DNA from: an uncultured Verrucomicrobia subdivision 3 bacterium
GTDB taxonomy: Bacteria; Verrucomicrobiota; Verrucomicrobiia; Limisphaerales; UBA11358
Length of the DNA: 50,718 nucleotides
NCBI GenBank assembly: GCA_903870815.1
Contig: CAIQEI010000047.1
Span: forward strand, 1-50,718
Direction of reading: 5' to 3'
Position numbers and translations under genes: made by a program. The notes under the pieces were generated by a model. The model had not been told where the DNA came from. It was given only the letters and a program-made list of their open reading frames with translations, and searched no databases. This document shows, one piece after another, positions 8,901 to 45,755 of the stretch; position 1 is the first letter of the stretch, and each line of letters starts with the position of its first letter.

Positions 8901-10025
8901 CATCAGATTACCGATGGTGTAGGCGTCAATCTGGCCGGAAACCGCAACGGCCTGAACATTCAATGGGGCAAAAGTGAGCGAAGGGTAATAGTTTGCGTAC
9001 CTCCAAGCCAAAAGGGATTGTGCATCTTCAAAGGCTGCGCCCATGTTGGCAATTGAGGGTTGCTGGTAAATGTAATAATTTACAAGCGGGTCCCACAGAT
9101 TGGTGTTCAAGTCCGTCAGGAATGCCGCCAAATTCAATTCCCATGATCCGACACCTTCATTGCGGAAATAGCCGTCAGCGGTGGGGGTAAACTGATTTGC
9201 GGTAGAAGCGCTCTGCGTCTGGTTGTGAATGGCATTCAAATCGAGCGTATTGCCGGCGGGCTGGGCGATGAAGGCGTAGCGGGCGATGAATTTGTTATTC
9301 GGACCATGCGGTTGGTCGGGATGTTCCAGGATGCCCACCCATTCAGGATCGCCCACCTCAAAGACGGTATTACCGGTCGGGGTCCCGGTGCTGTCGAACT
9401 CGGCCACCTGGCCATTTGTGTCGAACTGGCCGTTGCGGTTCAGGTCGAGGTAATAGCGAAAATCGTTCTGGCCGTTGTTGGGGTTATTGACGAACACGGG
9501 CGCACGCGGCAGATAATAGAGATTGGAAACGACCTGACTCAGAAAGTCGCCCGTCAATAAATTGCCGGACGGATCGTAATAACTGAGAGTGCCGATGGAC
9601 GCTGTGCCGGGAACGATGCCGCCCGGAGTGAGGTAATTCGTGGAGACCAGCAGGCCGTAATTGTAGGCGCCGGGGCCGCCAGACAATGCGTTCGCGGCGA
9701 TCTGCGCCTGGGCCGCCGCCAGGGCGGTGTCGGCGGCGAGACGCGCGGTGGTGGTGTCCGCGGCGGTATTGACGGCATTGCGCTCCCGCTGCGCGACGGA
9801 CAGGAACGCGATGGCCATGATGAGCGTCACGGACAGCAGGATGAGCGTGATGACGAGCGCAACGCCCTTGCTGGATTGACGATTGACGATTGACGATTGA
9901 CGATTGGAAGCGGCAGGGCACGTCACTCCGTGTGCGCCAGCGGTCGAAGGACTGACCGCCCCATCCGATTTTTTTCGAAACGTAAATCGTAAATCGTGAA
10001 TCGTAAATGGAATTGGCAGTTTCAT
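6000..10025 (-). CDS. Giant GspK/PilX-like pseudopilin (Verru_Chthon cassette A type)
   Basis: Length is 1341 aa. After an unusually long leader of about 53 residues comes a class III-like N-terminus: Gly54 followed by VALVITLILLSVTLIMAIAFL, then an Ala-rich amphipathic helix ending near residue 115. This is the layout of GspK/PilX minor pseudopilins. Normal GspK is about 300-350 aa; here more than 1200 residues of Asn/Tyr-rich, predicted extracellular sequence follow. The C-terminus (VGDILRVPALAEQSPFL, ARVIFRLVPHV) recalls the large 'cassette protein A' found in Chthoniobacter-like Verrucomicrobia; I name it from memory of the family. Its start codon overlaps the stop of the upstream gene by 4 bp (ATGA), so the two are translationally coupled. 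The leader is almost wholly encoded by a heptamer-repeat element (9874-10008). Inferred role: tip or minor pseudopilin of a secretion or pilus-like fibre. Confidence 0.75.
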   Translation of the reverse strand: MKLPIPFTIHDLRFTFRKKSDGAVSPSTAGAHGVTCPAASNRQSSIVNRQSSKGVALVITLILLSVTLIMAIAFLSVAQRERNAVNTAADTTTARLAADTALAAAQAQIAANALSGGPGAYNYGLLVSTNYLTPGGIVPGTASIGTLSYYDPSGNLLTGDFLSQVVSNLYYLPRAPVFVNNPNNGQNDFRYYLDLNRNGQFDTNGQVAEFDSTGTPTGNTVFEVGDPEWVGILEHPDQPHGPNNKFIARYAFIAQPAGNTLDLNAIHNQTQSASTANQFTPTADGYFRNEGVGSWELNLAAFLTDLNTNLWDPLVNYYIYQQPSIANMGAAFEDAQSLLAWRYANYYPSLTFAPLNVQAVAVSGQIDAYTIGNLMTSTLLPVALVPAALNWAGSDNPNRFFSLVSDAYDLSKTTVGVSPANVASGNYFTGRLLTAGNSPATYDRYTFYRLLNEMGTDSAPDDNRMNLNYDNLDAIGNVIPGAETNAISWTPIRFFTFAADRLLKHYTTNWITANFPFYTNTFGVTTVHPFGVTNIPVYINGQFVYTPAVNRLLQLTANLYDATTNSPYPSVFRPMFSVVKTNGFQNIYIDGYREVSALPTFTVGTAPLDLPLDISGTGLATDAAVDDPNGNLYGVPWIVGAKKGLPSFNEAYSRNSLQVTRKLEVTRNNPYIPGADATNEMFIMSITNQMGFGFWNSYNNNYPRPVTVFLNDILLMTLTNGANTWVAYTNIGFNVTQAAWPGSAWTFSGQTAPEFQSPTNSAAFITATYDIPVLPESQYSFFQTKFIPSAFAQWEPNLPGPPVFPQFGLTTTNWLQAYIIDGSHIIDYVQLRGPVSTTNLNAELQDPNDGINALHYYQWSTNAFGFNNPNNTPTYGVVNQISVSRKGISTVAGKWSNPGGMPAGVPQIPAAEAAYFNGFFTPTWTFGGKTYVNTNGALWPVQAPFTPTRTIWQFTLWQANDPLVHYLASDLNTYTRDTVPGYSDDLITKKLPTITLNSLADHYQPWGRNTAMAYLNGVDSNPFNLADRDPLLWGSDFWDFPAGKYPTVGWLGRVHRGTPWQTVYLKATDTLQDVVSGYQGLPQFVGTNTWAQWTGDTQFAYNPQTGLYENFDAVNSAPVQDGDLFDLFSTSLNGNATRGTLSVNQPGLAAWSAVFSGLVALTNITANPASYNAPVYTNLIISPAGPAGNNSALGQIVNGPNGINATRAYFTNADGVGGAFEHVGDILRVPALAEQSPFLHTDTANQNYDLNDEVYEWLPQQTLGLLRAGSSPRYVAYCYGQTLRPAVGGEVLNGPAFGLYTNYQITAETAARVIFRLVPHVTPTGTNYQSVIESFTPLPPN
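9874..10008. repeat. Heptamer inverted-array element in pseudopilin leader
   Basis: On the plus strand GATTGAC is repeated four times exactly, plus a variant, at 9874-9908. At 9981-10008 lie CGTAAAT x2, CGTGAAT, CGTAAAT. The second array read on the minus strand is GATTTAC-type, so the two arrays face each other around a core of about 72 bp. Both are translated: the first gives the NRQSSIV repeat and the second IHDLRFT-like sequence in the leader of the 1341-aa pseudopilin. The right arm ends 17 bp from the start codon and the left arm abuts the cleavage-site codons. Confidence 0.85.
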
Positions 10026-11035
10026 TGGTAGGCCGTGGGGTCAACGTTCGGGATGGTCACGCGCTGGCGGAACAGATGGACGGAGCCGGATTTGTCGGAC
10101 AAATATTGGGCTTGCAGTGCCGGCGGGCGCGATTCGGCGCGCTGCAGGATGCGGTCCTCCACCACGCCCAACTCCACTTCCACCGCGGCGGGAACCATGT
10201 TGCCGACCATGTAAAACTGCGTCTCGCCATACGACGGCGGGAAGAAAAAGGTGTTATTGGCATTTGTATAGGGCCACGCATAGCCGTTTATCCACACACC
10301 ATTGGGGTCATAGGCGCGCACGTTGAGATGCACCACGCCGTCAATGAGGTGGCTCATGTTGGCAGCGGGCGAGCTCATGGCGGCCTGAAATTGCTGGAAT
10401 AGGGTTTGCGGCGGGAACAGCACATTGGTTTCCGCATAAAACCGGTAGAGCCCATAAAGCGGACTGGCATGAGCCGTATCCACCAGGTAACCGGTGCCCG
10501 TCCACGTGGTGTTGTTGCGGCCCAGGACGAAGAAATAATTCAGCTGATTCGTGCGCTGGATGGGATTGCCCGAACCATCGACAGCCCCCGGCAGTGTCTG
10601 CGGCAGCGGCAGATAGGTGCTGTCGTAAACGGAATTACCCAAGACGAGAAAATTCGTCGCCCCACCGTTGTCGGACGGCGTCGCCCCGCGCAGGTCGGCG
10701 GCCATCAGCTCCATGGTGGCGCGACTGCCTTCCATGACGTCGGTCTGGGTGACCGCGGCGCGGAAAGCGCGTTGCGTGCTGCTGAACACCGCCATCAGCG
10801 CCAGGACGATGAAGGCGAGCAGCGACACCACTACGAGCACCTCGATGAGGGAGAAGGCGCGGTGAGGGGCAAGTGGCGAGGGGCGAGGGGCGGGCGGGGG
10901 AACATTCAACATCGAACATTGAACGCCGAACATCGAATCTAACATTGAACATTCAACGCCCAACTTCGAATCGAAACGTCGCTCCGTTCTTTGGAGGCGG
11001 GAGGTTCGAGGTTGGAGGTTGGACGAAAAGTTCAT
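10022..11035 (-). CDS. GspJ/PilW-like pseudopilin (cassette C type)
   Basis: Length is 337 aa. The prepilin signature is HRAFSLIEVLVVVSLLAFIV, with Ala60 at the -1 position and Phe61 at +1 of the predicted cleavage site, followed by an amphipathic helix (MEGSRATMELMAADLRGA) typical of GspJ/PilW. The leader of 60 residues is far longer than the usual 5-25 and is encoded by heptamer repeats. The C-terminus (RVTIPNVDPTAY) resembles cassette protein C of verrucomicrobial pseudopilin blocks. It begins 10 bp after the upstream pseudopilin gene and overlaps the downstream giant by 4 bp, so it is in one operon. Later in-frame ATGs exist inside the leader (residues 31, 35, 42), so the real start is uncertain. 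Confidence 0.78.
   Translation of the reverse strand: MNFSSNLQPRTSRLQRTERRFDSKLGVECSMLDSMFGVQCSMLNVPPPAPRPSPLAPHRAFSLIEVLVVVSLLAFIVLALMAVFSSTQRAFRAAVTQTDVMEGSRATMELMAADLRGATPSDNGGATNFLVLGNSVYDSTYLPLPQTLPGAVDGSGNPIQRTNQLNYFFVLGRNNTTWTGTGYLVDTAHASPLYGLYRFYAETNVLFPPQTLFQQFQAAMSSPAANMSHLIDGVVHLNVRAYDPNGVWINGYAWPYTNANNTFFFPPSYGETQFYMVGNMVPAAVEVELGVVEDRILQRAESRPPALQAQYLSDKSGSVHLFRQRVTIPNVDPTAYQ
10865..11022. repeat. Three-array heptamer element in GspJ-like leader
   Basis: Three 7-bp arrays with different words follow one another: AGGGGCG-type at 10865-10899, AACATTC/AACATCG/AACATTG/AACGCCG-type at 10901-10968 (one 5-bp interruption), and TTGGAGG/CGGGAGG/TTCGAGG at 10991-11022. The last reads CCAACCT-type on the minus strand, so it faces the middle array. 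Together they encode nearly all of the 60-residue leader. The outer end is 13 bp from the start codon. Confidence 0.85.
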
Positions 11036-11045
11036 GTTCGGAAGG

Positions 11046-11906
11046 TCAGCGGAAAGACTGCGGTTGATAAAAATACAGGTTGGTATTAACCGGGTCCGCC
11101 GCCAACTGGCCGGCGATGGAGGCGCGGAAGGTCTGGCGCCGGGGATTGGCCGGCAGTTTGCCGTTGGGCAGTTGCGGCCAGAGGAAGGTCAGCCGCAGTT
11201 CGTGCATATTATTGTTGGCGAACCCGGGCGACGAGTTGGCCGTGGCCGCGTTCACACAATACATCTGGTAGGCAAAGGTGCCACCGACCATGATGCCATT
11301 ATCCTGCGGCGGTTTCTCGACCGCCAGCCCGCTGATGGAACGGACGTAGGCGATGATGTGGTTGCTGTAGCCGCCGTTGGCGAGGTTTGCCAGCGCGCGG
11401 CCGTTGGCATCCATGAATTCCGGCACGCTCAGCAGGCCGATGATGTTAGCCCCGTTGAAAAGCGGCAATGAAGATTGGTTCAACGGCCAATTGCTGTTGT
11501 AGAAAGTGGAGCCGGCGAAATTAAAAACGTTCGAACCGGAATCAATCTTGGTTCCGCTGGCATCGTATTGTCCCCAGAAATTCGCAATCTGATAAACATA
11601 GTTGGTCAGGTAGTCCGCCCCGCGGGCGCCCGAGCGGATGGCTTCGAGCAGCACGGTGGCATCCTGGTTAATGATGGTCTCCTCCCGGACCTCGCGCTGG
11701 GTGTTCATGCCCAGGGGCAGCACGCCGATGATGGCCACGAGCGCAACCCCGATGATGGCCAGGCAGAGGGCGATCTCGATCATGGTAAAACCGCCAGAAG
11801 TGCGGAGTGCGGAATGCGGAGTGCGGAGTTTAACCGCAGCGCGCACAGCGGTTTTTTCATTTCGCGCTCCGCACTCCGCATTCCGCATTGGGCAGGCTGA
11901 TTTCAT
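11046..11906 (-). CDS. GspI/PilV-like pseudopilin (cassette B type)
   Basis: Length is 286 aa. The prepilin motif is SGGFTMIEIALCLAIIGVAL, with Gly at -1 and Glu at +5, followed by a region with conserved TQREVREE and DATVLLEAIRSG as in PilV/GspI-type minor pilins. The leader (about 38 residues) is coded by a heptamer element. The stop is 10 bp before the next gene, and the start overlaps the upstream gene's stop by 4 bp. Expected to be processed by a prepilin peptidase and inserted in the inner membrane before assembly. The family assignment to cassette protein B is from the block's gene content and C-terminal sequence (FYQPQSFR), not from a search. Confidence 0.75.
   Translation of the reverse strand: MKSACPMRNAECGARNEKTAVRAAVKLRTPHSALRTSGGFTMIEIALCLAIIGVALVAIIGVLPLGMNTQREVREETIINQDATVLLEAIRSGARGADYLTNYVYQIANFWGQYDASGTKIDSGSNVFNFAGSTFYNSNWPLNQSSLPLFNGANIIGLLSVPEFMDANGRALANLANGGYSNHIIAYVRSISGLAVEKPPQDNGIMVGGTFAYQMYCVNAATANSSPGFANNNMHELRLTFLWPQLPNGKLPANPRRQTFRASIAGQLAADPVNTNLYFYQPQSFR
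11797..11891. repeat. Heptamer inverted-array element in GspI-like leader
   Basis: Left arm at 11797-11831 has GGAGTGC/GGAATGC words; right arm at 11864-11891 has GCACTCC/GCATTCC words, their reverse complement. The arms can pair over about 28 bp around a 32-bp core. The left arm starts next to the GGF cleavage-site codons and the right arm ends 15 bp from the start codon. Confidence 0.88.
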
Positions 11907-12793
11907 GGGAGTTTCTGCTGCAACTGGTTGGCGCGACCGGTGACTTTGTCGATGTGGATGATGTCAAACATCGAATTGGTACTGTTGCCGGGTGGATTTT
12001 CCGTGGCGTTGGGCGGCTGGAAGATCAGCATCTTGTTGGCATCGGTGGCATAGGCGACGGTGCCCTGCGCGAGCGGAATGTATTCATCCTGCGGCGCAAG
12101 GTTCAAACCATCCACCGTGAGCTGACCGAGATAATTGAAGGCGATGTAGGGCAAAGACAGCACCGGAGCAGCGATGTTTTCAGACGGAAATGGAAAGCCA
12201 TTGGTGAAATTAAATTGGTTGATGGGATAAGTGGCAGTTGGAATTGAAGAGCCGCCAGAATAATCATTGACGGAATATGACGTGTAAAATTTCTGCGTAG
12301 CGATGAACGCCCCGTCGGGCAGCGACTTCCACTCGGCCAGATAGCGCGGCGTGTACTGTCCCGGCTGGTCGCCCACGGAACGCAGCGAAATGAAATTGTA
12401 GCCGGTGAATTGTTTGTCCAGCAGGTTGGTGGTGGCAGGCAGCGCCTGCACAACCGGCGACAGGGCCGTCCAAAAAACTGCCGGCACGAAAACCATGTAG
12501 ACGGTGGTGTGCTGGCTGATAGCGAGCGCCCGGGCGTGGCCGATGTCATCGAGTAACTGGCGGCCGGCGCTGACCTGGATGTTGGATTTGCCGAGATTCT
12601 TGAGCGCCGGCACGGTCAACGCGGCCAGGATGCCCAGGATGGCGATGACAACCAGCAGTTCGAGCAAAGTGAAACCATTTACGATTTGCGATTTACGATT
12701 TACGATGGCAGCAGGAATCTCCACCGGGCGCCGGTTCCGATGGGGAACCGAAAACCTGAAACCTGAAACCTGAAACCTGATCTTCATGTTCAT
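11903..12793 (-). CDS. GspH-like pseudopilin (cassette D type)
   Basis: Length is 296 aa. The prepilin motif NGFTLLELLVVIAILGIL is followed by a GspH-like segment: ARALAISQHTTVYMVF, where the first helix ends and the first beta strand begins. The leader of 40 residues contains two heptamer arrays. The start ATG is one base after the stop of the upstream GspG-like gene. A second ATG six bases further in is possible. The C-terminal part has a long Pro/Asn-rich insert compared with GspH of about 170 aa. Role inferred: minor pseudopilin in the same fibre as its three downstream neighbours. Confidence 0.77.
   Translation of the reverse strand: MNMKIRFQVSGFRFSVPHRNRRPVEIPAAIVNRKSQIVNGFTLLELLVVIAILGILAALTVPALKNLGKSNIQVSAGRQLLDDIGHARALAISQHTTVYMVFVPAVFWTALSPVVQALPATTNLLDKQFTGYNFISLRSVGDQPGQYTPRYLAEWKSLPDGAFIATQKFYTSYSVNDYSGGSSIPTATYPINQFNFTNGFPFPSENIAAPVLSLPYIAFNYLGQLTVDGLNLAPQDEYIPLAQGTVAYATDANKMLIFQPPNATENPPGNSTNSMFDIIHIDKVTGRANQLQQKLP
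12677..12779. repeat. Heptamer element with two different words
   Basis: ATTTACG-type words (one ATTTGCG) occupy 12677-12704, and AAACCTG is repeated exactly four times at 12752-12779. On the minus strand the second array encodes the FQVSGFRF segment of the leader. The two arms do not share a word, unlike most other elements here. The right arm ends 14 bp from the start codon, the left arm lies directly beside the cleavage-site codons. Confidence 0.85.
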
Positions 12794-12794
12794 T

Positions 12795-13595
12795 TTACTG
12801 CCAGCTCAGGACGTTGTCTTTGTTGACATCGGCGTTGGCTTTGGCCGCCGAATTAATGTTCTTGTCCGGTCCGGCTGACCAGGCCATGGCTTTGCCGTGA
12901 TGGAGAAAATTGTTCCCGTTGCCACCGGCGTCCACCGGGTTAAAGAGGCCGTTGAAGCCACTGGCACCATTTTGTTGCGAAACCGCCGCTTGAGAATAAA
13001 ACAGATCGCTCGTCCCCTTCTCGTTGTAGCTCGCATTCATGGTGATGACGTAGGGGTTGCCCCACGGATCGCGATAGACGCCGGTGTTGTCCACGCCCGG
13101 CAGCGGCTGCCCGCCTGATGTCGGGTCGTAGCCTGAGAGCTTGGCATTGAGATATTTCACCTGCTTGGGATTATAGACGTGGTTAACGTTCAGCGTCGGG
13201 TTGCCATTGGGAAACACCGTCAAATCCATGAGCGTGGCGACGACATTGCTATTGTTGTCGTAGGAAAATTTTCCGCCCGATCCCGCAGACCAGGTAATAT
13301 TTGCCTGGGGAGATTGGACCAAGCCACAGGTGAAATCATTTCCATTCGCGGCCGCCTGTTCCGGTTGCGTCATGGGAAACCGGCTGTAATCCTGGTCGTA
13401 CGATTGGATGGCGTTCACGAGATCGGTCGCCTCCAACTTGGCCTTGGCCTTTTGCGCGGCAATCCTGGCGTAGTTCAGCGCCGGCAGCAGCATCGCCGCG
13501 AGGATGCCGATGATGGCGATGACGACGAGCAGTTCCACGAGAGTGAAGGCCCGGGAATTTAAGATTTGCGATTTACGATTTACCATATTTTTCAT
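12795..13595 (-). CDS. GspG-like pseudopilin
   Basis: Length is 266 aa. SRAFTLVELLVVIAIIGIL is a strong prepilin motif with Ala at -1. A YRDPWGNPYV motif near residue 180 and a C-terminal GPDKNINS...NKDNVLSW segment match the calcium-site loop of GspG major pseudopilins, but the protein is about 120 residues longer than GspG. A one-arm heptamer array lies in the leader (17 residues), the shortest leader of the block. It is separated from the previous gene by a 252-bp gap, so it may start a transcript of its own. Confidence 0.78.
   Translation of the reverse strand: MKNMVNRKSQILNSRAFTLVELLVVIAIIGILAAMLLPALNYARIAAQKAKAKLEATDLVNAIQSYDQDYSRFPMTQPEQAAANGNDFTCGLVQSPQANITWSAGSGGKFSYDNNSNVVATLMDLTVFPNGNPTLNVNHVYNPKQVKYLNAKLSGYDPTSGGQPLPGVDNTGVYRDPWGNPYVITMNASYNEKGTSDLFYSQAAVSQQNGASGFNGLFNPVDAGGNGNNFLHHGKAMAWSAGPDKNINSAAKANADVNKDNVLSWQ
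13563..13583. repeat. Single-arm heptamer array
   Basis: GATTTGC, GATTTAC, GATTTAC in tandem, lying 12 bp inside the start codon of the GspG-like gene. It uses the same word as part of the element at 12677-12704. No facing arm is visible, so it may be a remnant. Confidence 0.7.
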
Positions 13596-13847
13596 AAGTC
13601 AGGTTAGGTGTTGGCAGCGGGCAGTGAAAGGGCGGCTGCGCGGGCCGACCGGGCCGGGAGTCATGGGCGATCCTGCGCCCGGCCGGTTACAAATCGGCGA
13701 TACGGCAGATTTCAAATCTGAGCTTCCAAGGCGGACCGCCACAAACCGGCCGGGGCCGATGATCGGGATCCAGGAGCAGTCATGCCATTCGACGGGCACG
13801 GAGGCTGGCCGGGGAGCTGGGTGGTTGGCGGAAGGCAATAACACAGG
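13596..13847. repeat. Gene-free gap with palindrome
   Basis: No gene is seen between the two GspG-like genes. A perfect palindrome, CAGATTT-C-AAATCTG, lies at 13706-13720, embedded in a GC-rich stretch with further short inverted pairs (GCCCGGCCGG near 13677). This resembles the other intergenic repeats of the window. No T-run marks a terminator. Confidence 0.45.
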
Positions 13848-14627
13848 TCAGGGTAGCGGGCTGTTGATCTGCACCTGCCGGCTCCAGTTGCAGATCAGGT
13901 TGGTCTGGCCGTTGATGACAAGCTGCACCCACAAGTCGTAGGACCCGGGGTTGTTGACGCCGGGATAGAGATAGCGGAAGGGGTTCAGGCCAGATGCGTT
14001 TAGTGGCTGGTAGTTGCTGTCCGGCCCGCCAACTGATGTGAGAATAATGGTAGTGGGAACGCCGTTGTTTGTGAAAGAACCCACAAGTTGTCTGGTACTT
14101 AAACCGGACAGGAAATTCTGGGCCGTGGAACCATCCTCGCCACCGCCTTGGGTGCAATTGATGAATCCGCCCACTCCGTAGGCCGCTTGCACATCATGGC
14201 CTGGGTTATTGACGGGAATCTGCGCGCTGCCGTCCAGCGTGACAAAATTTCCACCGCTGACCTTGACGCCGGAAAGTTCATAGTAAAGCTGGTTGAACTG
14301 CGAACGATCCAATGGCGCAGCATAAGCGCCAACGGGGTTGGCGTTGCCCGGGGGATAGGCGTTGTATTTGGCGTGGTAATTTTCCAGGGCGGTTTTGAGG
14401 AACTCCATTTCCCCGCGGGCCACGTTTTTGTATTGCCAGGCCCTGGCCGATCTCACCACGACCAGAGTGAAGCCCGCCAGCACGCCCATGATGGCCATGA
14501 CGACGAGCAGTTCAATCAGAGTAAAAGCGCGACGAGGGGCGAGGGGCGAGGGGCGGGGAGACTGCGCGTCAATTGTCTGATGCGTTTCGTTTTTCAGCCG
14601 GCACTTGTCACTTTTTGTTTTCATCAT
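13848..14627 (-). CDS. GspG-like pseudopilin coupled to antitoxin gene
   Basis: Length is 259 aa from the ATG at 14627, which overlaps the antitoxin stop as ATGATGA; the next ATG at 14624 is equally possible. A longer frame back to 14666 exists but would run 43 bp into the antitoxin gene. RRAFTLIELLVVMAIMGVLAG is the prepilin motif, with Ala at -1, followed by a helix ending in ALENYHAKYNAYPPG, the GspG-type YHxxxNxYP segment. The C-terminal part (FRYLYPGVNNPGSYDLW) resembles the GspG loop. The leader of about 33 residues carries a GGGGCGA-type array. Translational coupling to a toxin-antitoxin operon is unusual for a pseudopilin. Confidence 0.78.
   Translation of the reverse strand: MMKTKSDKCRLKNETHQTIDAQSPRPSPLAPRRAFTLIELLVVMAIMGVLAGFTLVVVRSARAWQYKNVARGEMEFLKTALENYHAKYNAYPPGNANPVGAYAAPLDRSQFNQLYYELSGVKVSGGNFVTLDGSAQIPVNNPGHDVQAAYGVGGFINCTQGGGEDGSTAQNFLSGLSTRQLVGSFTNNGVPTTIILTSVGGPDSNYQPLNASGLNPFRYLYPGVNNPGSYDLWVQLVINGQTNLICNWSRQVQINSPLP
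14534..14554. repeat. Single-arm heptamer array
   Basis: GAGGGGC repeated exactly three times, beginning about 7 bp from the cleavage-site codons of the GspG-like pseudopilin, and coding for the SPRPSPLAP part of its leader. The same word is used in the GspJ-like leader at 10865-10899. No matching facing arm was found. Confidence 0.75.
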
Positions 14628-14899
14628 CGTTCTTTCAGTTCCTGTTCCATCCGCTCGCTCAACCATTGCTTGACCATGCTCTGGTAGTTCAGATACCGCA
14701 TCCGGGCCAGCCGCTTGATGCGCGCAAGCATCCGCGGATCAAACCGCAGCGTGACTGTCACCGATTCCGACGCCTCGGCGCCGCCCGCGACGGCCGTCTC
14801 CATCAGCCGCAAGTCGGGACGGTTCTCCGTCCAAAACGTCGCCTCGGCCGTCTCGCTGTCGAACAGCGGCACTTCTTCCCAGTTGGCAAATGTTTGCAT
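14624..14899 (-). CDS. BrnA-like ribbon-helix-helix antitoxin
   Basis: Length is 91 aa from the ATG at 14899; a longer frame to 15121 runs back into the toxin gene and through repeats, so it is not used. The sequence has an acidic N-terminal part with SETAEATFW, the BrnA-type EAEFW motif, then VTVTLRFDPRMLARIKRLARMR and YQSMVKQWLSER, a ribbon-helix-helix layout. BrnA-type antitoxins bind their BrnT toxin and repress their own promoter. The partner gene lies 97 bp upstream, with a heptamer element in the gap; in typical brnTA pairs the two genes touch or overlap. Its stop overlaps the start of a GspG-like gene. Confidence 0.75.
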   Translation of the reverse strand: MQTFANWEEVPLFDSETAEATFWTENRPDLRLMETAVAGGAEASESVTVTLRFDPRMLARIKRLARMRYLNYQSMVKQWLSERMEQELKER

Positions 14900-14907
14900 G
14901 TTTATTT

Positions 14908-14999
14908 CGGGTCTTGGCTCTCGGGTCTCGCGTCTGGGATTTGGGGAAGGCAAATGCCAATCCTCCCAGATCCAAGATGCCAGACCCCAAACCCCATCA
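14908..14999. repeat. Heptamer inverted-array element between toxin and antitoxin genes
   Basis: Left arm 14908-14942 (CGGGTCT, TGGCTCT, CGGGTCT, CGCGTCT) and right arm 14965-14999 (CCCAGAT, CCAAGAT, GCCAGAC, CCCAAAC). The right arm read on the minus strand is GTCTGG/ATCTTGG-type, so the arms face each other around a 22-bp core. Here the element is not translated: it fills the gap between brnT-like and brnA-like genes, ending 9 bp before the antitoxin start. Confidence 0.78.
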
Positions 15000-19932: not shown

Positions 19933-20017
19933 AGAAGGCAGAAGGAAGAAGGCAGAAACCAGATGTTTCGGCCTGCTTTAGTTTTTTTTCTTCATTCTTC
20001 ATTCTTACTTCTGCCTT
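19933..20017. repeat. Heptamer inverted-array element between second pilB and pilT
   Basis: Left arm 19933-19960 has AGAAGGC words (AGAAGGC, AGAAGGA, AGAAGGC, AGAAACC); right arm 19990-20017 has CTTCATT x2, CTTACTT, CTGCCTT, facing the left arm. The core is 29 bp. The element occupies almost all of the gap after the second PilB's stop codon. It is not in a leader, so not all copies depend on pilin genes. Confidence 0.85.
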
Positions 20018-25143: not shown

Positions 25144-25514
25144 TTACTGAATCTGATGCGGCGGGGTGGCCGTGCTCAGGGTGCAGGTGGCGTTCGAGCC
25201 GACGAAGCTGCAGTCGTAGGACCCGTTGGCGGGGCAAACCGGCAGGCTGCCGCCGGAGTTCATCTTAATGTAAGGCGTGAGGTCATCCGGGAAGGTGATG
25301 GCGTCGCCGGTGGACTTGTGATGCTCCACTGCAAACTGGCTGGCCGCTGAGTCGATCTGGCGGAGGTTGTTAATGCAGCCGTTGGCCTGCGACGTGGCGC
25401 GGGCCTTGACGAAGTTCGGAATCGCAATCGCCGCCAACAGGCCGATGATGGCCACGACGATCATGATTTCCACCAGCGTGAAACCCGCCTTGCGGGTCTG
25501 AGTGTTTTTTTCAT
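25144..25514 (-). CDS. Short type IV pilin-like protein with a -1 shift in an A7 tract
   Basis: The pilin frame from GFTLVEIMIVVAIIGLLAAI to the stop is intact and closely matches the paralogue at 26421-26792 (both have PNFVKARATSQAN, CINNLRQID, LTPYIK, TPPHQ). No start codon exists in that frame: upstream it runs back to a TAA. An ATG at 25514 is followed by seven A, and reading from it goes out of frame. If the tract had eight A the protein would begin MKKNTQTRKAGF, which aligns with the paralogue's MKQTKNIRKAGF; it would be 123 aa. So this is a homopolymer frameshift, a sequencing or assembly slip, or a gene rescued by transcriptional slippage. Terminator and reading frame beyond are intact, which argues against long decay. 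Confidence 0.75.
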
Positions 25515-25828
25515 ATGTTTTTTTGTTTTGTTATGATTTATGTTATTAAACCGCTACCGACAGTCTGATTGCTATCAGACAATGCCCCTTTGAAGCAAGG
25601 AATAACCCCCTGGTTGTCCCACCCTACCGCCGCTTCGGCCAAGAATAAGTCAGCAAACAAAGTGCCAACCAAATTGATACTGAGCGTATTTTCAATTCTC
25701 CGTTCACGGTGGCTTGAATCAGCCAAGCCCCATCCCTGCGAATGCGACCAGCGCCGGTCCCCATCGCATCCGACTCCGAATAATTACGTTCAATCCGCCC
25801 GGAAAATCATCGCGAAAACCGATTCCGT
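25515..25828. other. Gene-free gap upstream of frameshifted pilin
   Basis: No credible gene is present; short frames here lack support. Next to the pilin start the minus strand is A-rich (ACAAAAAAACAT) with no Shine-Dalgarno motif. A small inverted pair GTCTGAT / ATCAGAC lies near 25560-25580, and GGCTTG / CAAGCC-type pairs near 25712-25730. I see no strong promoter like those of the two neighbouring pilins. Confidence 0.4.
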
Positions 25829-40047: not shown

Positions 40048-40580
40048 TTTTTATCCGGCGGGATCAGGGCCAGCCCGTTGATTTCCGCGCTCATAGTAAA
40101 TTGCTGGCCCTCCTTGTCATGCGCGTTGACCTCCAGCGAATCCAGCCGTAACGCCAGCGGCCCGCCCTCCAGGTCATATAGAAATTTGCTCAATGCGCCG
40201 AGGTCGCCGGAAGTCTCCACGCGACAGGTGAGCGTCAGATAATTCGTCGAATCATTCTTCCATTGCGGCATCAGGCTCGTCACCTCCGCGCCGCTGCTGC
40301 GCGACCAGCCGTCCACCGCCGTGAACAACTGCTGCTCGGCGAGCGACGTGTTGGCCGGCAGCGCGTTTGCCCGCATGTCCGCCCAGCGGCGGCGGACGAC
40401 CGCCTCGCGCCGGACCAGCTCATTGCCATCGTTGACCTTCAACCGCAACTCCCGGATCTGGGTCTGCCGGTCCGACCACCAGCCCGCCAGCGGCGTGAGG
40501 ATGAAGTTAACCGCCACCAACAATCCCGCCGCCGCGATGGTCAACAGCATGAGAAACTGCTGGCGATTTTCAATTTTCAC
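40044..40580 (-). CDS. GspM/PilO-like protein
   Basis: Length is 178 aa from a GTG at 40580 with GGAGG 8 bp upstream; a longer frame to 40616 lacks a ribosome site. One membrane helix (FLMLLTIAAAGLLVAVNFILTPL) is followed by a coiled coil (about 35-75: RQTQIRELRLKVNDGNELVR) and a ferredoxin-like fold (about 90-175: EVTSLMPQWKN, LTLTCRVETSGDLGALSKFLYDLE, LRLDSLEVNA). That is the PilO/GspM plan. The start overlaps the GspL gene's stop by 11 bp. It should bind GspL in the inner-membrane platform. Confidence 0.8.
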   Translation of the reverse strand: MKIENRQQFLMLLTIAAAGLLVAVNFILTPLAGWWSDRQTQIRELRLKVNDGNELVRREAVVRRRWADMRANALPANTSLAEQQLFTAVDGWSRSSGAEVTSLMPQWKNDSTNYLTLTCRVETSGDLGALSKFLYDLEGGPLALRLDSLEVNAHDKEGQQFTMSAEINGLALIPPDKK

Positions 40581-42027
40581 GGCCGCCTCCGTGGTTGAAT
40601 TTGAATTCGAATACAAATTGCATCGGCGCCTTGCCGCGGATCTGTTCCAGCTTCACGTCGTTCACGCCGTCCGCCGCACGCAACCGGGACTGCATCGCCA
40701 GCAGCGCCGCGTAATCAAGCGCCGTGCCGGAGCAGGTCACCGTGCGTCCGTCGCGCACCTCGATGGTTTTCGCCGTTACTGAGCCATCCTCCGGAAACGA
40801 CAGCGACAACTGCCGCAATATCGCGAGATTGGGAAACGAGCCGTCGTACCATGAGCGATACTGCCGGACGTTGTCCTGGATCGCCTGCAACTCGCCGGCC
40901 TTCGCCGCCAGGCGCGACCACTGCGACCGGTAATGCCACAGTTGAATCTGTTGCACCAAAAAAATTCCGAGTACAACCGCCGCCATCCCCGCCGCCACCG
41001 CGCCGGTCGTGCGCAACCGGCCGGATGAATACTTCATTGCGAACTGCCCGATGAAGGACGGCTTAGGCGGCAGAAATTCGAACGCCGGCGGCTGCCCCGC
41101 CAAAAATCTCGCCGCGAGGCAGAACGCCGGCGACAACAGGGCTTCCCCCGGCAGGGTCACCCCGAATTCATCCGGCGCACAGGCCGAAACCCATTCCACT
41201 TTCAAGCCCGCCGGGTCAAAGCGCAGTTCCAGCTCATCCGCGAGCGGTTGCGCCAGCTCGCGCGGGCCGAAAATTCGGATCCGCTTCACTGCGTCGCGCA
41301 GCCCGCCCGGCAACTGGCCGAGCGTGACCCGGGTCTCGCGCGCCACCAAATCCACGTGCAGCGTGCGCCGCCCGGCTTCGTCTTCCACTGCACCATCGAG
41401 GGAGCGTAACGCCACCACGCCGCCGCCGGCTGTGACTTGCAATGAAACATTCCGCTCGCCGATCGCCAGGGCGAGCACGCCGCCGGATTTTTCGTCGCCG
41501 GGAAATTGTAGCGCGGAAATCCCGGGCGCAAAACTGACCGGCTTCAACTTCGCCGCCGCGAGAACTTTTTCCAAGGCGGCCAGGTGCGTGGCTGGAATGC
41601 CCGCGAGTAGAACATTTTCCTTGCCGTCCGCCAGCGGGCTGCGCGAATCAGAAATCTGCAGCGTCGCCACGTCGGAATGAAAGCCGCGCTCGGCTTCCAG
41701 CAGCAGCAGGCTTTTCGCGTCGGCCGCCGGCAACGGCGGCAGTTCCGTCGCCGCCGTCAACACCCATTTCAGCGGTACGCCGACAACACAATGGCGTTCG
41801 CGCACGCCGGCGGCGTCAAGCTGATTGCGGAGTTCGCGGCCGGCCAGTTCCGGCGCTGCCGTCAGCGGATCGAGCGCCAGCTGCGCGGAGAATTTTTGCC
41901 ACACGGCCAGCGAGCCGTTCGTGCGCTTGAGCACCACGCCGTCCAGACGGCTGCCGTCCAGCGCGAGGCCGAGCAGCGTCGTCAGCTTTTTCCGCCGGCG
42001 GAAGTTGATTTTGAAATCAGGTTTCAT
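40570..42027 (-). CDS. GspL-like protein (PilM actin-fold plus PilN part)
   Basis: Length is 485 aa. Residues 1-325 have the actin-like PilM/GspL cytoplasmic fold (LLGLALDGSRLDGVVLKR, VVGVPLKWVLTAATELPPL, LALAIGERNVSLQV). A membrane helix lies near 340-360 (GAVAAGMAAVVLGIFLVQQI), followed by a coiled coil and a PilN-like ferredoxin domain (about 400-470, SLSFPEDGSVTAKTIEVRDGRTVTCSGT). The two parts are separate genes in pilus operons and fused in GspL. In its family the cytoplasmic part docks GspE. The neighbours on both sides overlap by 4-11 bp. Confidence 0.85.
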   Translation of the reverse strand: MKPDFKINFRRRKKLTTLLGLALDGSRLDGVVLKRTNGSLAVWQKFSAQLALDPLTAAPELAGRELRNQLDAAGVRERHCVVGVPLKWVLTAATELPPLPAADAKSLLLLEAERGFHSDVATLQISDSRSPLADGKENVLLAGIPATHLAALEKVLAAAKLKPVSFAPGISALQFPGDEKSGGVLALAIGERNVSLQVTAGGGVVALRSLDGAVEDEAGRRTLHVDLVARETRVTLGQLPGGLRDAVKRIRIFGPRELAQPLADELELRFDPAGLKVEWVSACAPDEFGVTLPGEALLSPAFCLAARFLAGQPPAFEFLPPKPSFIGQFAMKYSSGRLRTTGAVAAGMAAVVLGIFLVQQIQLWHYRSQWSRLAAKAGELQAIQDNVRQYRSWYDGSFPNLAILRQLSLSFPEDGSVTAKTIEVRDGRTVTCSGTALDYAALLAMQSRLRAADGVNDVKLEQIRGKAPMQFVFEFKFNHGGGREN

Positions 42028-43475
42028 GGCGTGTCTTTCGCGACCAGATTTTCCCGGGCTTTCTCGCCCAGCGCCCAGCCGAGCCGGCTCAGGTCCTGCC
42101 GGTAGAGGATTTTCGGCCTGCCGTCGCTCACGTCAAAAATGAATTTCACGCGCCGGTAGCCGCGCCCGAACGCCCCGACCGCCGCGATGTCGGCGGTGAA
42201 CTGGTAGCTGTGTGTGGTCACGAAGTTTCCGCGCGTCAGCGCCGTGACGACCGGGCTGTTGTTGCCGAGCGCGTCAATGATCCACGCGATGGAGCCGAGA
42301 TTGTTCGGGTTCTGCTGACGATAGCTGATGAGCGTCTGCGCTGCGCCGGACGCCGTCTGCTCGTCCACGTTCGCGCCCATGAATACCGCCGTCAGCACGT
42401 CGGCGGTGGCGGTGTTGACGTTCACGCGGCCGCGGAAATAGGCGTTGGTGCTGGTCGTCACACTGTCGGAGATGTTCGCAAAATCGCCCGAGCTCAGGCC
42501 GGTATTTTTGCAGCGCAGGCAGAAATCCAGCAGGCCGTTGCAGTTATTGACGATGAGTCGGTTATTCGGATTCGGATGAATGGTGCGGTAGATGGACTGC
42601 GCCATGCGGGTGGCGCTGCTGGTTCCGGCGTTTTGGAAGATTGATTGAAACTGCGCCTGCGTCGCCGTGTTCACGTTCGTCAGGGTCGTGCCGTCGGCGT
42701 GGAAATTCGGCTCGCGGGTGTAGACGGTGACATATTCCAACAGGCCGGGGTCAAGTTCGCCGGTGCGGTGCAAATCCTTTTCGTTCGCGTCGAGCACGCC
42801 GTTGCGGTTCAAATCCCCGCCGACAAGCAAATCCTCCGACGCGCCATAGACGAGCCGCAGTTCGTCCACCGTCTCGAACGGCGCATTTTTCGGCGCGTAA
42901 CCGAGCGACATGTAGTCCAGCGAGACGGCGCCGTTCGTGCCGCGCCAGTCCATGATCGCGTCCGCAAAATCGGACGTCATGTTCGGCAGATATTGAAAGA
43001 CATTTGTGCTGACACTGTTCAAATTCAGCTTGCCGCCCTCGTCCACCAGGCCGAAATACGGGGTGGTGGGGTTGTCCGCATTCAGGTCGCGCCCGATGAG
43101 CCAGAACTTCGCATCGCCCACCGGCACCGCCTCGCATTTGAACTGCGTGTTGTCTGGCACCGCGCCGTTGGTTGCAAAATTCTGGAGCGCATAGGCGACA
43201 TAGCGCGCCGCGCCTTCGATGGCCTGCTCCGCCGCCAGGCCGTTGACGCGGTTGTCCGCCGCGCGCAGCTCGTAGTTCATGGAGTTTGCGAAATACAGCG
43301 CGATGCTGACGAGGCCGATGGCGACCCAGAGCACGATGATGAGGACGGAGCCGTGTTCGGTTCTGCGGAAACGTCCAACCTTCAACGCCGAACCTTCAGC
43401 CTCCAATGAACTGGCGCACCGAACGCCGTTGGGCGTTGGGCGTTGGGCGTTGAAGGTTGAAGGTTGAAGGTTCAT
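42024..43475 (-). CDS. GspK-like minor pseudopilin
   Basis: Length is 483 aa from the ATG at 43475, two bases after the GspJ stop; a TTG at 43481 is the alternative. The leader (about 40 residues) is coded by heptamer arrays. HGSVLIIVLWVAIGLVSIALYF gives the GspK-type N-terminus: Gly at -1 and no Glu at +5, as in the tip pseudopilin. The body has GspK-type segments: LVDEGGKLNLNSVS, DAIMDWRGTNG, APFETVDELRLVYG and VNVNTATADVLTAVF (helix-hairpin-helix-like). A DLNRNGVLDANE segment near 222 looks like an EF-hand-type loop. It is longer than the usual 320 aa. Confidence 0.88.
   Translation of the reverse strand: MNLQPSTFNAQRPTPNGVRCASSLEAEGSALKVGRFRRTEHGSVLIIVLWVAIGLVSIALYFANSMNYELRAADNRVNGLAAEQAIEGAARYVAYALQNFATNGAVPDNTQFKCEAVPVGDAKFWLIGRDLNADNPTTPYFGLVDEGGKLNLNSVSTNVFQYLPNMTSDFADAIMDWRGTNGAVSLDYMSLGYAPKNAPFETVDELRLVYGASEDLLVGGDLNRNGVLDANEKDLHRTGELDPGLLEYVTVYTREPNFHADGTTLTNVNTATQAQFQSIFQNAGTSSATRMAQSIYRTIHPNPNNRLIVNNCNGLLDFCLRCKNTGLSSGDFANISDSVTTSTNAYFRGRVNVNTATADVLTAVFMGANVDEQTASGAAQTLISYRQQNPNNLGSIAWIIDALGNNSPVVTALTRGNFVTTHSYQFTADIAAVGAFGRGYRRVKFIFDVSDGRPKILYRQDLSRLGWALGEKARENLVAKDTP
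43377..43473. repeat. Heptamer inverted-array element in GspK leader
   Basis: Left arm 43377-43411: AACCTTC, AACGCCG, AACCTTC, AGCCTCC, AATGAAC. Right arm 43427-43473: CGTTGGG x3, CGTTGAA, GGTTGAA x2. The right arm on the minus strand is AACCTTC x2 then AACGCCC x3, so the arms match in word and face each other around a 15-bp core. The right arm ends at the start codon. This is the clearest example. Confidence 0.92.
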
Positions 43476-43477
43476 TT

Positions 43478-44278
43478 TCAATTTCCCGTGCTGCTGGAAC
43501 TAGCCAGCACCGCATTGGTACGGGTGACCGAATCAATCGGCACGACGATTACCACCGGCTGCGCATTGGGATTGCCGGCCAGCTGGATTTCGACGCGCAC
43601 GGCCATGGGCAGGTTGGTGTTCACCGCCATCGCGGCGGTCGTGTCCCAGGCAGACTGCCATTGCGCGCCGTCGTAACCGGAAAATTTCACGCTCGCGACG
43701 CCGCTCAGCATCAGTTGGTCGTCCACGGCGGGGGTCGAGACCGGCAGCAGATTTCGCACGACGCTGCGGTACAAATCTTTTCCGGGCGCGGACGGCGTGG
43801 CGGAATTTTTTAATTCGTACGTCACGCGCTGGATGTCGCCCCACGGCTGGCGGTCGCTCAAAGCGCCGGTTGCGGTGAACATTTCAATCGCCACCGGATC
43901 ACTGATGCCGGCGCTGGTGATATTGTCGCCGACCCGGAAACCGCCGGACAAAATCTTGCTCGTGCCGTTGGTGGGCGTGACGCAGCATTGCAGGTCGCGT
44001 TTCAGAAAGGTCACCGCTGAATCGACCGGGGTCGCCGCATCCACCAGGTCCGAAGTGGCGTCGCGCAGGTGCAGCGAGGTGAAAAACACCGCGTTCACGG
44101 CGATCAGCACAATCGCCGCGAGGCCGATGGCGAGAATCATCTCGATCAGCGTGAAGGCGCGGCGGCGGGATGACGGGTTGAACGCTTGAATGGTTGAATC
44201 GCAAAGCTGGTCCGCCCGCGGCAACGATTCAACGGTGCCACGATTCAACCATTCAACTTTTTTTGTTTCAATTTTCAA
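43478..44278 (-). CDS. GspJ-like minor pseudopilin
   Basis: Length is 266 aa if started at the TTG at 44278; no ATG or GTG in frame lies upstream of the pilin motif, so this start is uncertain. RRAFTLIEMILAIGLAAIVL is the prepilin motif, with Ala at -1. A helix (SLHLRDATSDLVDAATPVDSAVTFLKRDLQ) follows, then the GspJ-type strand region (RVTYELKNSATP, LYRSVVRNLLPV, VKFSGYDG). GspJ is a minor pseudopilin of the tip with GspI and GspK. The leader carries an octamer-repeat element. The gene follows gspI after 10 bp. Confidence 0.83.
   Translation of the reverse strand: MKIETKKVEWLNRGTVESLPRADQLCDSTIQAFNPSSRRRAFTLIEMILAIGLAAIVLIAVNAVFFTSLHLRDATSDLVDAATPVDSAVTFLKRDLQCCVTPTNGTSKILSGGFRVGDNITSAGISDPVAIEMFTATGALSDRQPWGDIQRVTYELKNSATPSAPGKDLYRSVVRNLLPVSTPAVDDQLMLSGVASVKFSGYDGAQWQSAWDTTAAMAVNTNLPMAVRVEIQLAGNPNAQPVVIVVPIDSVTRTNAVLASSSSTGN
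44177..44257. repeat. Octamer inverted-array element in GspJ leader
   Basis: Like the heptamer elements but with a period of eight: GTTGAACG, CTTGAATG, GTTGAATC (44177-44200) facing GATTCAAC, GGTGCCAC, GATTCAAC, CATTCAAC (44226-44257). The core is 25 bp. The right arm ends 21 bp from the start codon. It shows that period 7 is not absolute. Confidence 0.78.
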
Positions 44279-44288
44279 AAAATATTAA

Positions 44289-44699
44289 CTATGGATTCAG
44301 GGTTGTCACCGGCTGCGTCTGCGTATTTGCCAGCGTGCTCAACGTCACCGAATAATCTTTGCCCTGCGCGGAAAATGTCACTGCCGCCGTCAGCCACTGC
44401 ATCGATTCTTCCGGCCAGTTCCGGCTCGTCAGCTGCCACTTAAAATCCAGGATGCCTTCCGTGGCCGTGCCGCTCTGCGTGCCGCCGGCCCAGTTCGTCG
44501 TCACCAGGCTCTCGTTCAATATCCGGTCCGCCACGCGCGCCGCCGCGCTTTTTCTCACCGCGACCTCGCCGGCGAGGCTGGCGACGTGCAGCGCCTCCAC
44601 GGCCGTCGGAATGACGATGGCCAGAAATAGCAGCGCCGCCAGAACTTCCGCGAGCGTGAACGCGGCGCACTTAGGGTTGGCCGGTATCGTTAATTTCAT
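44289..44699 (-). CDS. GspI-like minor pseudopilin
   Basis: Length is 136 aa from the ATG at 44699, inside the last 29 bp of gspH. The leader is short (MKLTIPANPKCA), and the motif AFTLAEVLAALLFLAIVIP has Ala at -1 and Glu at +5. Normal GspI size and the SLAGEVAVRKSAAARVADRI and NWPEESMQWLTAAVTF segments agree. Of the T2SS pseudopilins it is the only one with no heptamer element in the leader, and its leader is of normal length, which supports the view that the elements account for the long leaders of the others. Confidence 0.85.
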   Translation of the reverse strand: MKLTIPANPKCAAFTLAEVLAALLFLAIVIPTAVEALHVASLAGEVAVRKSAAARVADRILNESLVTTNWAGGTQSGTATEGILDFKWQLTSRNWPEESMQWLTAAVTFSAQGKDYSVTLSTLANTQTQPVTTLNP

Positions 44700-45255
44700 A
44701 ACCAGTCCGCGACCGTGTTTCCGCCAGCCAGCGCGAGAACCCTGCACTATCCGTTAATTTCAAAGTTTGCGGGCTGCTCTCGTCCACCGTGCCATCCGCC
44801 AAAAACCGGATCGCCGGCAATTTTTTAAACGTCGTCGCAACGGTGCCGATATTCAAAACCGCAATCTGCAACGTCGAATCCACGGTCAAATCTTCCGCTT
44901 TCGCGTCCCCGTTCAGCCCGCTCATTTCCGCCGCGAGCCCGTAGCTGCCGGCTTGCTCATCCACCCACAACATCATCGGCGCGCCCTCGGAAACCGCGCG
45001 GCTCTGCGCCGCGTGCATCAGCGCCGACAACCGCCGCGCCTCGGCATCCAGCGCGCGGCCCCGGATAAACCGCGACATCGCCGGCGCCGCGATGGACGTG
45101 ATAATCACCAGCAGCGCGAGCACGAGCACCAGTTCGATCAACGTGAAGGCGTCCGCGTGACGCGCGACGCGTGGCCGGTGACTGGAAACTGCCCTTTGCG
45201 CGGGGCATGCTTTCGTGTCACTTGCAATTTGCCACTGGTCACTGGTCACATTCAC
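44671..45255 (-). CDS. GspH-like minor pseudopilin
   Basis: Length is 194 aa from the GTG at 45255, which overlaps the gspG stop as GTGA; a TTG three codons further up is less likely. After a 36-residue leader made by a heptamer element, DAFTLIELVLVLALLVIITSIAAPAM is the prepilin helix, with Ala at -1. GspH-type sequence follows: EARRLSALMHAAQSRAVSEGAPMMLWVDE, and the strand VAVLNIGTVATTFKKLPAIRF. A Trp-rich C-terminal end is normal for the family. Confidence 0.85.
   Translation of the reverse strand: MNVTSDQWQIASDTKACPAQRAVSSHRPRVARHADAFTLIELVLVLALLVIITSIAAPAMSRFIRGRALDAEARRLSALMHAAQSRAVSEGAPMMLWVDEQAGSYGLAAEMSGLNGDAKAEDLTVDSTLQIAVLNIGTVATTFKKLPAIRFLADGTVDESSPQTLKLTDSAGFSRWLAETRSRTGYEINDTGQP
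45157..45251. repeat. Heptamer inverted-array element in GspH leader
   Basis: Left arm 45157-45191: GTGACGC, GCGACGC, GTGGCCG, GTGACTG, GAAACTG. Right arm 45217-45251: GTCACTT, GCAATTT, GCCACTG, GTCACTG, GTCACAT. The right arm ends four bases from the start codon at 45255, and the left arm begins about 7 bp from the cleavage-site codons. The core is 25 bp. Confidence 0.88.
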
Positions 45256-45755
45256 TTTGTCCAACTGACAATGTCATCGTCGGTTCCTTCCTTGCCGTCC
45301 GGTCCGACGGAAAGCAGGTCGTAGGAATTCGCGCTGTGCTTGCCCGGATAATAATAAATGTAAGGGTTGCCCCACGGGTCAACCGGGAGCTTGTCGAGAT
45401 ATGGCCCGTGCCAGTTTTTTGCGTTGCCCGGCTGCACAATCAAATCCTGGAGGCTCTTGGGATAAAAACCATTGTCCACCTCATAAGCGCCGAGCGCGGA
45501 TTTAATGCCGCCGTTGATGTCCGCATAGGCAGCCGTCGTGCGCGCTTGTTCGCTTCTTCCCACAATTTTCGGAATGACCAGCGCTGCGAGGATGCCGATG
45601 ATCATCACGACCAGCAGCATTTCCACGAGCGTGAAAGCGCGGCGCAAAAGCCGGCCGGAGGGACGAGTTCCACGAGTCCCCAAAATGTCGCCTGGTTGGT
45701 TATATAGGGACTCGCAGCGCTCGTCCCTCCGAAGGTCTGTGTATTTTATTTTCAT
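45252..45755 (-). CDS. gspG: GspG major pseudopilin
   Basis: Length is 167 aa. RRAFTLVEMLLVVMIIGILAALV is the prepilin motif (Ala at -1, Glu at +5), followed by the helix to DNGFYPKSLQDL and the GspG hallmark block DPWGNPYIYYYPGKHSANSYDLLSVGP with DGKEGTDDDIV, the calcium-binding loop. This is the structural subunit of the T2SS fibre. The leader (39 residues) carries a 25-bp inverted repeat rather than a heptamer array. It lies 11 bp downstream of gspF. Confidence 0.94.
   Translation of the reverse strand: MKIKYTDLRRDERCESLYNQPGDILGTRGTRPSGRLLRRAFTLVEMLLVVMIIGILAALVIPKIVGRSEQARTTAAYADINGGIKSALGAYEVDNGFYPKSLQDLIVQPGNAKNWHGPYLDKLPVDPWGNPYIYYYPGKHSANSYDLLSVGPDGKEGTDDDIVSWTK
45656..45731. repeat. 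Inverted repeat in GspG leader
   Basis: Two 25-bp arms, 45656-45680 and 45707-45731, are inverted copies with few mismatches (CGGAGGGACGAG...GAGTCCC against GGGACTCG...CTCGTCCCTCCG) around a 26-bp core. They can form a strong stem in DNA or mRNA close to the gspG start. The word differs from the heptamer elements, but the size and the position in the leader are the same. Confidence 0.85.

Follow-up and report, generated by a model that had tools for sequence, protein, structure and literature searches.

Repeat elements in the predicted leaders of pseudopilins from a Verrucomicrobia subdivision 3 bacterium and its relatives

Introduction

This report concerns a 50,718-nucleotide stretch of DNA from an uncultured Verrucomicrobia subdivision 3 bacterium (contig CAIQEI010000047.1 of assembly GCA_903870815.1), hereafter called the window, and the short repeat elements that lie in its pilin-type genes between the start codon and the site where prepilin peptidase is predicted to cut, i.e., in the leader. 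The window is one contig of a 3.17-Mb draft genome, and it holds both an operon for a type II secretion system (T2SS) and a cassette of pilin-like proteins. A previous inspection of the same DNA, referred to below as the sequence-only reading, had proposed that these elements constitute the leaders, that prepilin peptidase removes them, and that their stems could set the ratios of the pseudopilins. Here, these proposals are considered together with the corresponding genes of related bacteria.

The Window and Its Leader Elements

The T2SS operon comprises gspE-F-G-H-I-J-K plus more genes, and the cassette proteins show weak matches, below cut-off, to the Verru_Chthon cassette proteins C and D. 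Together they contribute 11 operonic pilin-type genes, six from the cassette and five from the T2SS, and seven of these score above the cut-off for PF07963 in a profile search. GspG lies above its equivalog cut-off, GspH, GspJ, and GspK are matched below theirs, and GspI is identified by its position in the operon. The products carry the class III leader feature of type II pseudopilins and type IV pilin-like proteins, namely G or A at position -1 and a hydrophobic N-methylation segment. Regarding the relatives of GspK, 16 of the 19 named loci come from metagenome bins of Limisphaerales or Verrucomicrobia subdivision 3.

A repeat element lies between the start codon and the cleavage site in ten of the 11 operonic genes, GspI being the exception. 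At a fixed threshold (score 11 or more), tandem arrays of 7-bp units are recognized in seven leaders. The element of GspH is an array that scores lower, that of GspJ is an inverted repeat, and that of GspG resembles the palindromes known as repetitive extragenic palindromic (REP) sequences; the last is not a heptamer array, which corrects the sequence-only reading. That reading had named eight genes, i.e., those for the giant GspK-like (A-like), GspJ-like (C-like), GspI-like (B-like), and GspH-like (D-like) proteins of the cassette and for GspK, GspJ, GspH, and GspG. In all eight, the far arm or array ends 6–24 bp from the start codon, and in seven the first base of the mature protein is 4–21 bp from the nearest arm or array, no cleavage-proximal arm being callable in GspH, so that the proposed position of the elements holds. 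Inverted arms of at least 12 bp occur in the B-like, GspK, GspJ, and GspG leaders, and a search for them in the A-like, C-like, D-like, and GspH leaders returned none; not every element is a hairpin.

All of these leaders are read from the minus strand. The A-like leader (9864–10025, 54 residues) has arrays at 9874–9906 (GATTGAC) and 9981–10008 (CGTAAAT), the former facing the first mature base at 9863, and its start overlaps the upstream stop as ATGA, in frame. In the C-like leader (10856–11035, 60 residues), whose folding score relative to shuffled sequence is z = -0.4, the arrays are at 10868–10892, 10900–10957, and 11001–11023, and the mature protein begins at 10855. The B-like leader (11790–11906, 39 residues; mature base 11789) likewise has an ATGA overlap and contains inverted heptamer arms at 11801–11828 and 11867–11894, which are 89% complementary (z = -8.2). 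The D-like leader (12674–12793, 40 residues; mature base 12673) holds arrays at 12677–12706 (ATTTACG) and 12752–12780 (AAACCTG), in which no complementary arms were found (z = 0.5). Two further cassette pilins, additional to those in the sequence-only reading, have a single leader array each: the gene at 12795–13595, with a leader of 16 residues (13548–13595) and a three-copy array at 13563–13583, and the first pilin of the cassette at 13848–14627, with a leader of about 34 residues (14526–14627) and a CGAGGGG array at 14533–14555.

In the T2SS operon, the GspK leader (43350–43481, 44 residues) has arms at 43370–43406 and 43429–43465 and an array at 43427–43472, with the mature protein starting at 43349, a TTGA overlap, and z = -3.2. 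The GspJ leader (44156–44278, 41 residues; mature base 44155) begins with TTG and has arms at 44171–44201 and 44225–44255 made of TTGAATC-type units below the array threshold (z = -2.8). The GspH leader (45148–45255, 36 residues) has a GTGA overlap and a weak 7-bp array at about 45233–45249 (CACTGGT; z = -1.6), and the GspG leader (45636–45755, 40 residues; mature base 45635) has palindrome arms at 45656–45680 and 45707–45731 (z = -6.6). In four of the named genes, i.e., A-like, B-like, GspH, and GspK, the start codon overlaps the upstream stop (as ATGA, GTGA, or TTGA), and in the remaining four it follows that stop by 1–12 bases.

The leaders of the eight named genes measure 36–60 residues, close to the 33–60 proposed. 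GspI and three short pilins of the window had been described as free of elements, with leaders of 11–12 residues; none of the four has an element or array, and the stated length applies to two of the short pilins, the GspI leader (44661–44699) having 13 residues and the third short pilin (25144–25473) no in-frame start codon. In this last gene (region 25144–25542, minus strand), an ATG out of frame with the mature pilin stands just before a run of A, an arrangement that either a sequencing error or slippage would fit.

Filled and Empty Leaders among Relatives

The comparison covered 40 T2SS loci from 38 relatives, of which two genomes are split over two loci each, and 33 cassette loci, the window being counted once in each set. 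Each junction was measured as the distance between the stop codon of the preceding gene and the residue with which the mature pilin begins, five junctions whose gap was zero, negative, or above 420 bp were excluded beforehand, and junctions were called filled according to size, with thresholds set by eye. With 28–40 orthologues per site, the lengths are mostly of two sizes: empty and filled junctions measure 59–99 and 121–147 bp at GspG, 7–25 and 77–130 bp at GspH, 10–43 and 61–100 bp at GspI, 26–38 and 69–155 bp at GspJ, and 38–65 and 104–136 bp at GspK. The groups are less sharply separated in the cassette. Filled junctions amount to 7/39 (FG), 22/39 (GH), 13/40 (HI), 22/40 (IJ), and 13/38 (JK) in the T2SS, and to 27/34, 25/32, 21/28, and 25/29 at the four cassette sites.

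The orthologous pseudopilins include both filled and empty leaders, as the sequence-only reading had suggested looking for, with a median length of 38.5 residues in the filled state (162 measured) and 17 in the empty one (128 measured). Of the 175 filled junctions, 102 contain a 7-bp array that reaches the threshold, and the others contain REP-like palindromes, weaker arrays, or no recognized repeat. Moreover, the same site carries different repeat words in different relatives.

Reading Frame and Start Codons

From the upstream stop to the cleavage site, 161 of the 175 filled junctions are free of stop codons in the frame of the pilin; the remaining two frames are open in 59 and 47. In frame-discordant pairs, it is the pilin frame that is open in 102/102 and 115/116 cases. 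The same pattern is found in the same-genus subset (148, 50, and 41 of 160 open) and in the heptamer-bearing inserts (96, 32, and 27 of 102). At 89 junctions a start codon overlaps the upstream stop, open and in frame, and at 64 more an in-frame start follows within 15 bases, giving 153 of 175; the others comprise ten with an overlapping start that is not open, seven with a start further on, and five without a start in the junction. The residue at -1 is A or G at every site, filled (175/175) or empty (139/139), and the inserted segments are net positively charged in 158/161 cases (median +5), compared with 94/106 for the other open frames.

The gspE-gspF junction serves as a control, as GspF lacks a cleaved leader. 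It is long in 11 of 35 loci, seven of which have an array over the threshold, and none of the 11 is open in the gspF frame. The window itself provides one such case, an inverted heptamer element at 47037–47132 (minus strand) that is not open in the gspF frame, and a further non-coding comparison, an inverted heptamer element at 19933–20017 (minus strand) in the same-strand gap between two genes for T2SSE-family ATPases. As for the gspK-gspL junctions, none of 36 has an array, and one, from another family, is long. On account of the open pilin frame, the constant A or G at -1, and these two junctions, translation of the elements within the leader is most likely, and the leader would then be constrained in frame. 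The earlier argument that an insertion in a discarded leader need only keep the frame is therefore strongly supported, and the check on start codons inside the elements had an outcome that favors it, since most sites have an in-frame start codon that overlaps the upstream stop or lies at most 15 bases past it.

Gain, Loss, and Folding

On a tree of 36 T2SS loci, built by a quick method and containing some long branches, the minimum number of changes between the filled and empty states is 6 for GspG, 10 for GspH, 9 for GspI, 11 for GspJ, 10 for GspK, and 7 for gspE-gspF. The window has four of its five T2SS leaders filled, and its nearest relative (L091) none of five. Such turnover speaks for repeats that come and go, and not for a conserved device.

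Filling of the T2SS leaders is uneven between genomes (none of 10,000 shuffles was as uneven) and reaches 0.69 where the gspE-gspF junction is long compared with 0.29 otherwise (p = 0.002), in statistics that ignore the kinship among genomes. Among the T2SS sites, GspG is filled less often than GspH-K (7/39 vs 70/157, p = 0.003). Regarding folding, which was computed for all but ten of the 175 inserts, z is below -2 in 49 of 98 heptamer inserts (median -2.0), in 27 of 67 other inserts, and in 8 of 147 controls from gene bodies.

Distribution of the Repeats in the Genome

Period 7 stands out among the short tandem periods in this genome: 40 arrays with a score of 11 or more were counted in 337 kb, i.e., the window and 20 stretches picked around pilin genes, a non-random sample of about a tenth of the genome. 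Other tandem periods from 4 to 15 gave 0–7 arrays each, except the multiple 14 with 24, and a Markov simulation gave none for periods 5, 7, 8, and 10. Outside the window (286 kb), the density is 0.44 arrays per 10 kb within genes, as predicted by a simple custom codon-usage caller, and 3.4–4.7 per 10 kb in gaps. Among the 114 same-strand gaps there that measure 10 bp or more, 8 contain an array, compared with 7 of the 11 operonic leaders (Fisher p = 2e-5), so the enrichment at leaders that the sequence-only reading had proposed to count does exist, confined to certain operons. The arrays use 31 distinct words in the sample from this genome and 89 in the relatives, many of them not G-rich, and 19 of 34 arrays outside the window share a word with the list of 89 from the relatives, compared with 7.8% for random words. 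Searches with exact three-copy patterns, which are too strict for mapping distribution, found each of two words in 3 of 194 genomes of the phylum, this one included, and the window has no Rfam match at gathering thresholds.

The GspG element is dispersed as well. Its 24-base core has 45 copies in the genome within three mismatches, this one included, compared with none for a reversed control; BLAST gives 41 matches, and about eight pairs of copies lie on opposite strands 36–52 bp apart. The copy in the window stands in the open leader frame of gspG, i.e., it is not extragenic.

Association with particular operons is evident from the pilin genes elsewhere. None of the 26 pilin-type genes outside the window in this genome has a leader array, one of them having an array 155–202 bp upstream of its mature start, and the three short pilins of the window have none. 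Of 32 further pilin loci of relatives, hand-picked among the matches listed, 26 were treated as lone genes, and in these the 160 bp nearest the mature start are free of arrays; the other six represent the first pilin of a third operon, where the preceding gene ends, as we take it, like GspF/PilC, and three of the six have an array. The relatives also possess a second T2SS-like operon, in which an array is present in none of 25 leaders (8 loci) and palindromic inserts are visible in three (L219 twice, L220). The contrast between array-bearing and array-free operons ties the elements to some operons and not to others. GC-rich palindromes of other families were also noticed in pilin leaders (L219:1764 and 2896 and L220:3114, reverse strand offsets, and the gspH-gspI junctions of L102, L113, and L114); leaders thus host several unrelated types of repeat.

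Arrays inside genes are rarer. In the 286 kb outside the window, ten were found in eight predicted genes, including in-frame heptamer arrays in those for MnmE (L014:10160-11602), GlyRS (L020:3513-5147), MiaA (L027:14552-15466), and an acyl-ACP ligase (L013:3234-6758), and another in-frame heptamer array lies around 184-213 of locus L291, in what we presume to be a fragment of IleRS. In MnmE and GlyRS, the segment that contains the array differs among relatives in both length and sequence, and in some of them its peptide looks repetitive. The alignment of GlyRS with the solved structure 8u2q breaks at the array (query 215-247, chain 240-244), and the segment has a similar length in most relatives, so that the array either took the place of part of a variable segment already there or arose by growth within it. 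Across the GlyRS of relatives (L259-L287), the stretch between the RADQ motif and the next conserved block is highly variable and measures about 30 to 165 residues. In addition, a heptamer array encodes part of an apparent Sec signal peptide at the N-terminal end of an 803-residue protein (L017:5113-7524).

Origin of the Leader Elements

The explanation that we consider quite probable is that dispersed genomic repeats, i.e., 7-bp arrays, paired or single, and some REP-like palindromes, have entered the pseudopilin leaders of these operons repeatedly and independently, and have been tolerated where the product is discarded, which would make the leader a frame-constrained harbor. The element would be translated within the leader and then cut off by prepilin peptidase, its cargo would be neutral, and arrays would be made or moved by some process acting in these genomes; an insertion would survive if it is in frame, free of stops, and basic and leaves the (A/G)^F site intact. 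In favor of this explanation are the two junction sizes, the open pilin frame, the constant A or G at -1 and the positive charge of the inserts, the turnover of state and of repeat words, the lack of openness at long gspE-gspF junctions and of arrays at gspK-gspL, the dispersal of the GspG family, the in-frame arrays in other genes, and the uneven filling between genomes, which is higher with a long gspE-gspF junction. As stop and start codons overlap or nearly do so, intergenic DNA is almost absent, and the role of the spacer may fall to the cleaved leader. A leader close behind a stop is, we infer, in effect an operon spacer, and its equivalent in a lone gene must allow free initiation.

Several observations weigh against this explanation. 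The idea of an operon spacer leaves the array-free second T2SS-like operon unexplained, and the third operon of this genome (L015) has no array either. Plain tolerance does not account for the excess of arrays in leaders over ordinary gaps. The nearest relative, empty in its T2SS, is filled at four of four cassette sites, and filling of the two systems correlates weakly (rho 0.30, p = 0.14, n = 26). Related genomes are not independent, so the counts overstate the number of events. Some inserts that are filled by size are free of repeats (e.g., L118, L119, and L123 at GspH), and in 14 of the 175 filled junctions the pilin frame is interrupted, so that the start may lie inside or after the insert. 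Of the 13 window arrays, just one has a word that recurs elsewhere in the tenth of the genome that was sampled. No mobilizing enzyme could be linked to the elements in a search for Y1_Tnp, which has seven matches in the genome, and six fetched Y1_Tnp loci (2.0–3.3 kb each) contain no GspG core within six mismatches. Finally, the idea of a clean insertion is not borne out for the array of MnmE, whose alignment with the solved structure 3geh is free of gaps across the place.

The alternatives differ in what they make of the same data. A stem just past the start codon could lower or tune the translation of the minor pseudopilins and so set subunit ratios, as the sequence-only reading had suggested. 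The major pseudopilin GspG is filled least, the heptamer inserts fold better than shuffled sequences and far more often than gene-body controls, and leaders are filled more than ordinary gaps, all of which speak for such regulation; the low rate at GspG would also follow if inserts are less well tolerated in a highly expressed gene. The presence and family of the repeat vary among relatives, with at least 6–11 state changes per T2SS leader site and a nearest relative without any T2SS element, loci with a long non-coding gspE-gspF junction also show more filling, and a hairpin rule for all leaders was discarded, as the fold is unremarkable (z no better than -2) in about half of the heptamer inserts and four of the eight named leaders lack complementary arms. 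We regard regulation of this kind as improbable. A directed or selected relation between heptamer elements and pseudopilin leaders, beyond tolerance, is unlikely too, if slightly less so: a templated process that makes 7-bp arrays from a shared vocabulary would favor leaders, or selection would retain them there, and the changing leaders would tune the translation of minor pseudopilins lineage by lineage.

It is hardly credible that the starts are misassigned, with translation beginning inside or after an element that is plain intergenic DNA. Codons that would permit it (TTG, GTG, and some ATG) are present within elements, and the non-open junctions, including the ten with non-open overlapping starts and the seven whose first in-frame start is further on, would fit; against it stand the excess of open pilin frames over the other two, the 89 open, in-frame overlaps of stop and start, and the lack of any such openness at the long gspE-gspF junctions. 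Replication slippage among leader codons, growing arrays in place without an outside element, is very improbable as well. Slippage commonly yields tandem units, array lengths differ among relatives, and the words of the window are rare elsewhere in the sampled part of the genome, all in its favor; yet the size difference of filled junctions is mostly a step of about 60–100 bp and not a continuum, arms are paired with a spacer, words are shared across the genus, and the GspG element is a dispersed palindrome. The entry of dispersed repeats into leaders that are probably translated and discarded is the reading that we retain.

Comparison with Known Systems

These leaders suggest a rule, namely that coding sequence can admit repetitive DNA where the encoded segment is removed after translation. 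They also offer a natural experiment, as nine sites that are filled or empty in dozens of relatives bear on which lengths and which variety of prepilin leader are tolerated. For the annotation of start codons, leaders of 35–60 residues look real and not miscalled. In addition, the arrays point to a little-described class of heptamer elements in Limisphaerales, some of them in frame in enzymes that modify or charge tRNA. In the literature searched, with most subscription papers outside its reach, no description of repeat elements in prepilin leaders was found.

Three known groups of repeats invite comparison, and membership in none of them is claimed. As for heptameric repeats, the part of PMC4692102 that treats them describes G-rich heptanucleotides in Xanthomonas (GGGAATC), Nostoc, and Calothrix, those of Xanthomonas often forming inverted pairs (70 and 75 cases), and makes no mention of leaders. 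The heptamer arms and 7-bp tandem units of the window resemble the GGGAATC pairs, but many of the words reported here are not G-rich and stand in frame in leaders. REP sequences and REPINs are outlined in PMC3116915 as inverted doublets with a spacer, dispersed and primarily extragenic, 14 of 1,067 16-mers overlapping genes. The GspG leader element is like them in its many dispersed copies, some in inverted pairs, and unlike them in that its copy lies in an open frame. No link to a REP-associated tyrosine transposase (RAYT) was found here among the six Y1_Tnp loci fetched.

The closest parallel is provided by the Rickettsia palindromic elements (RPEs; Ogata et al. 2000, 2002), which the section on them in a review (PMC10969869) presents as palindromes of about 150 bp in ten families, found in metabolic genes. 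As with RPEs, short repeats lie in frame inside unrelated protein-coding genes and are here predicted to be translated. They differ from RPEs in their make-up, as 7-bp arrays or REP-like palindromes, in their concentration in cleaved leaders, and in belonging to another phylum; as regards a palindromic unit of about 150 bp, inverted arms are present in four of the eight named leaders, and the size step is mostly 60–100 bp. The finding of elements in these leaders is real and strong, and it is best read as in-frame palindromic or tandem repeats, comparable to the RPEs, with the cleaved prepilin leader as their probable harbor.

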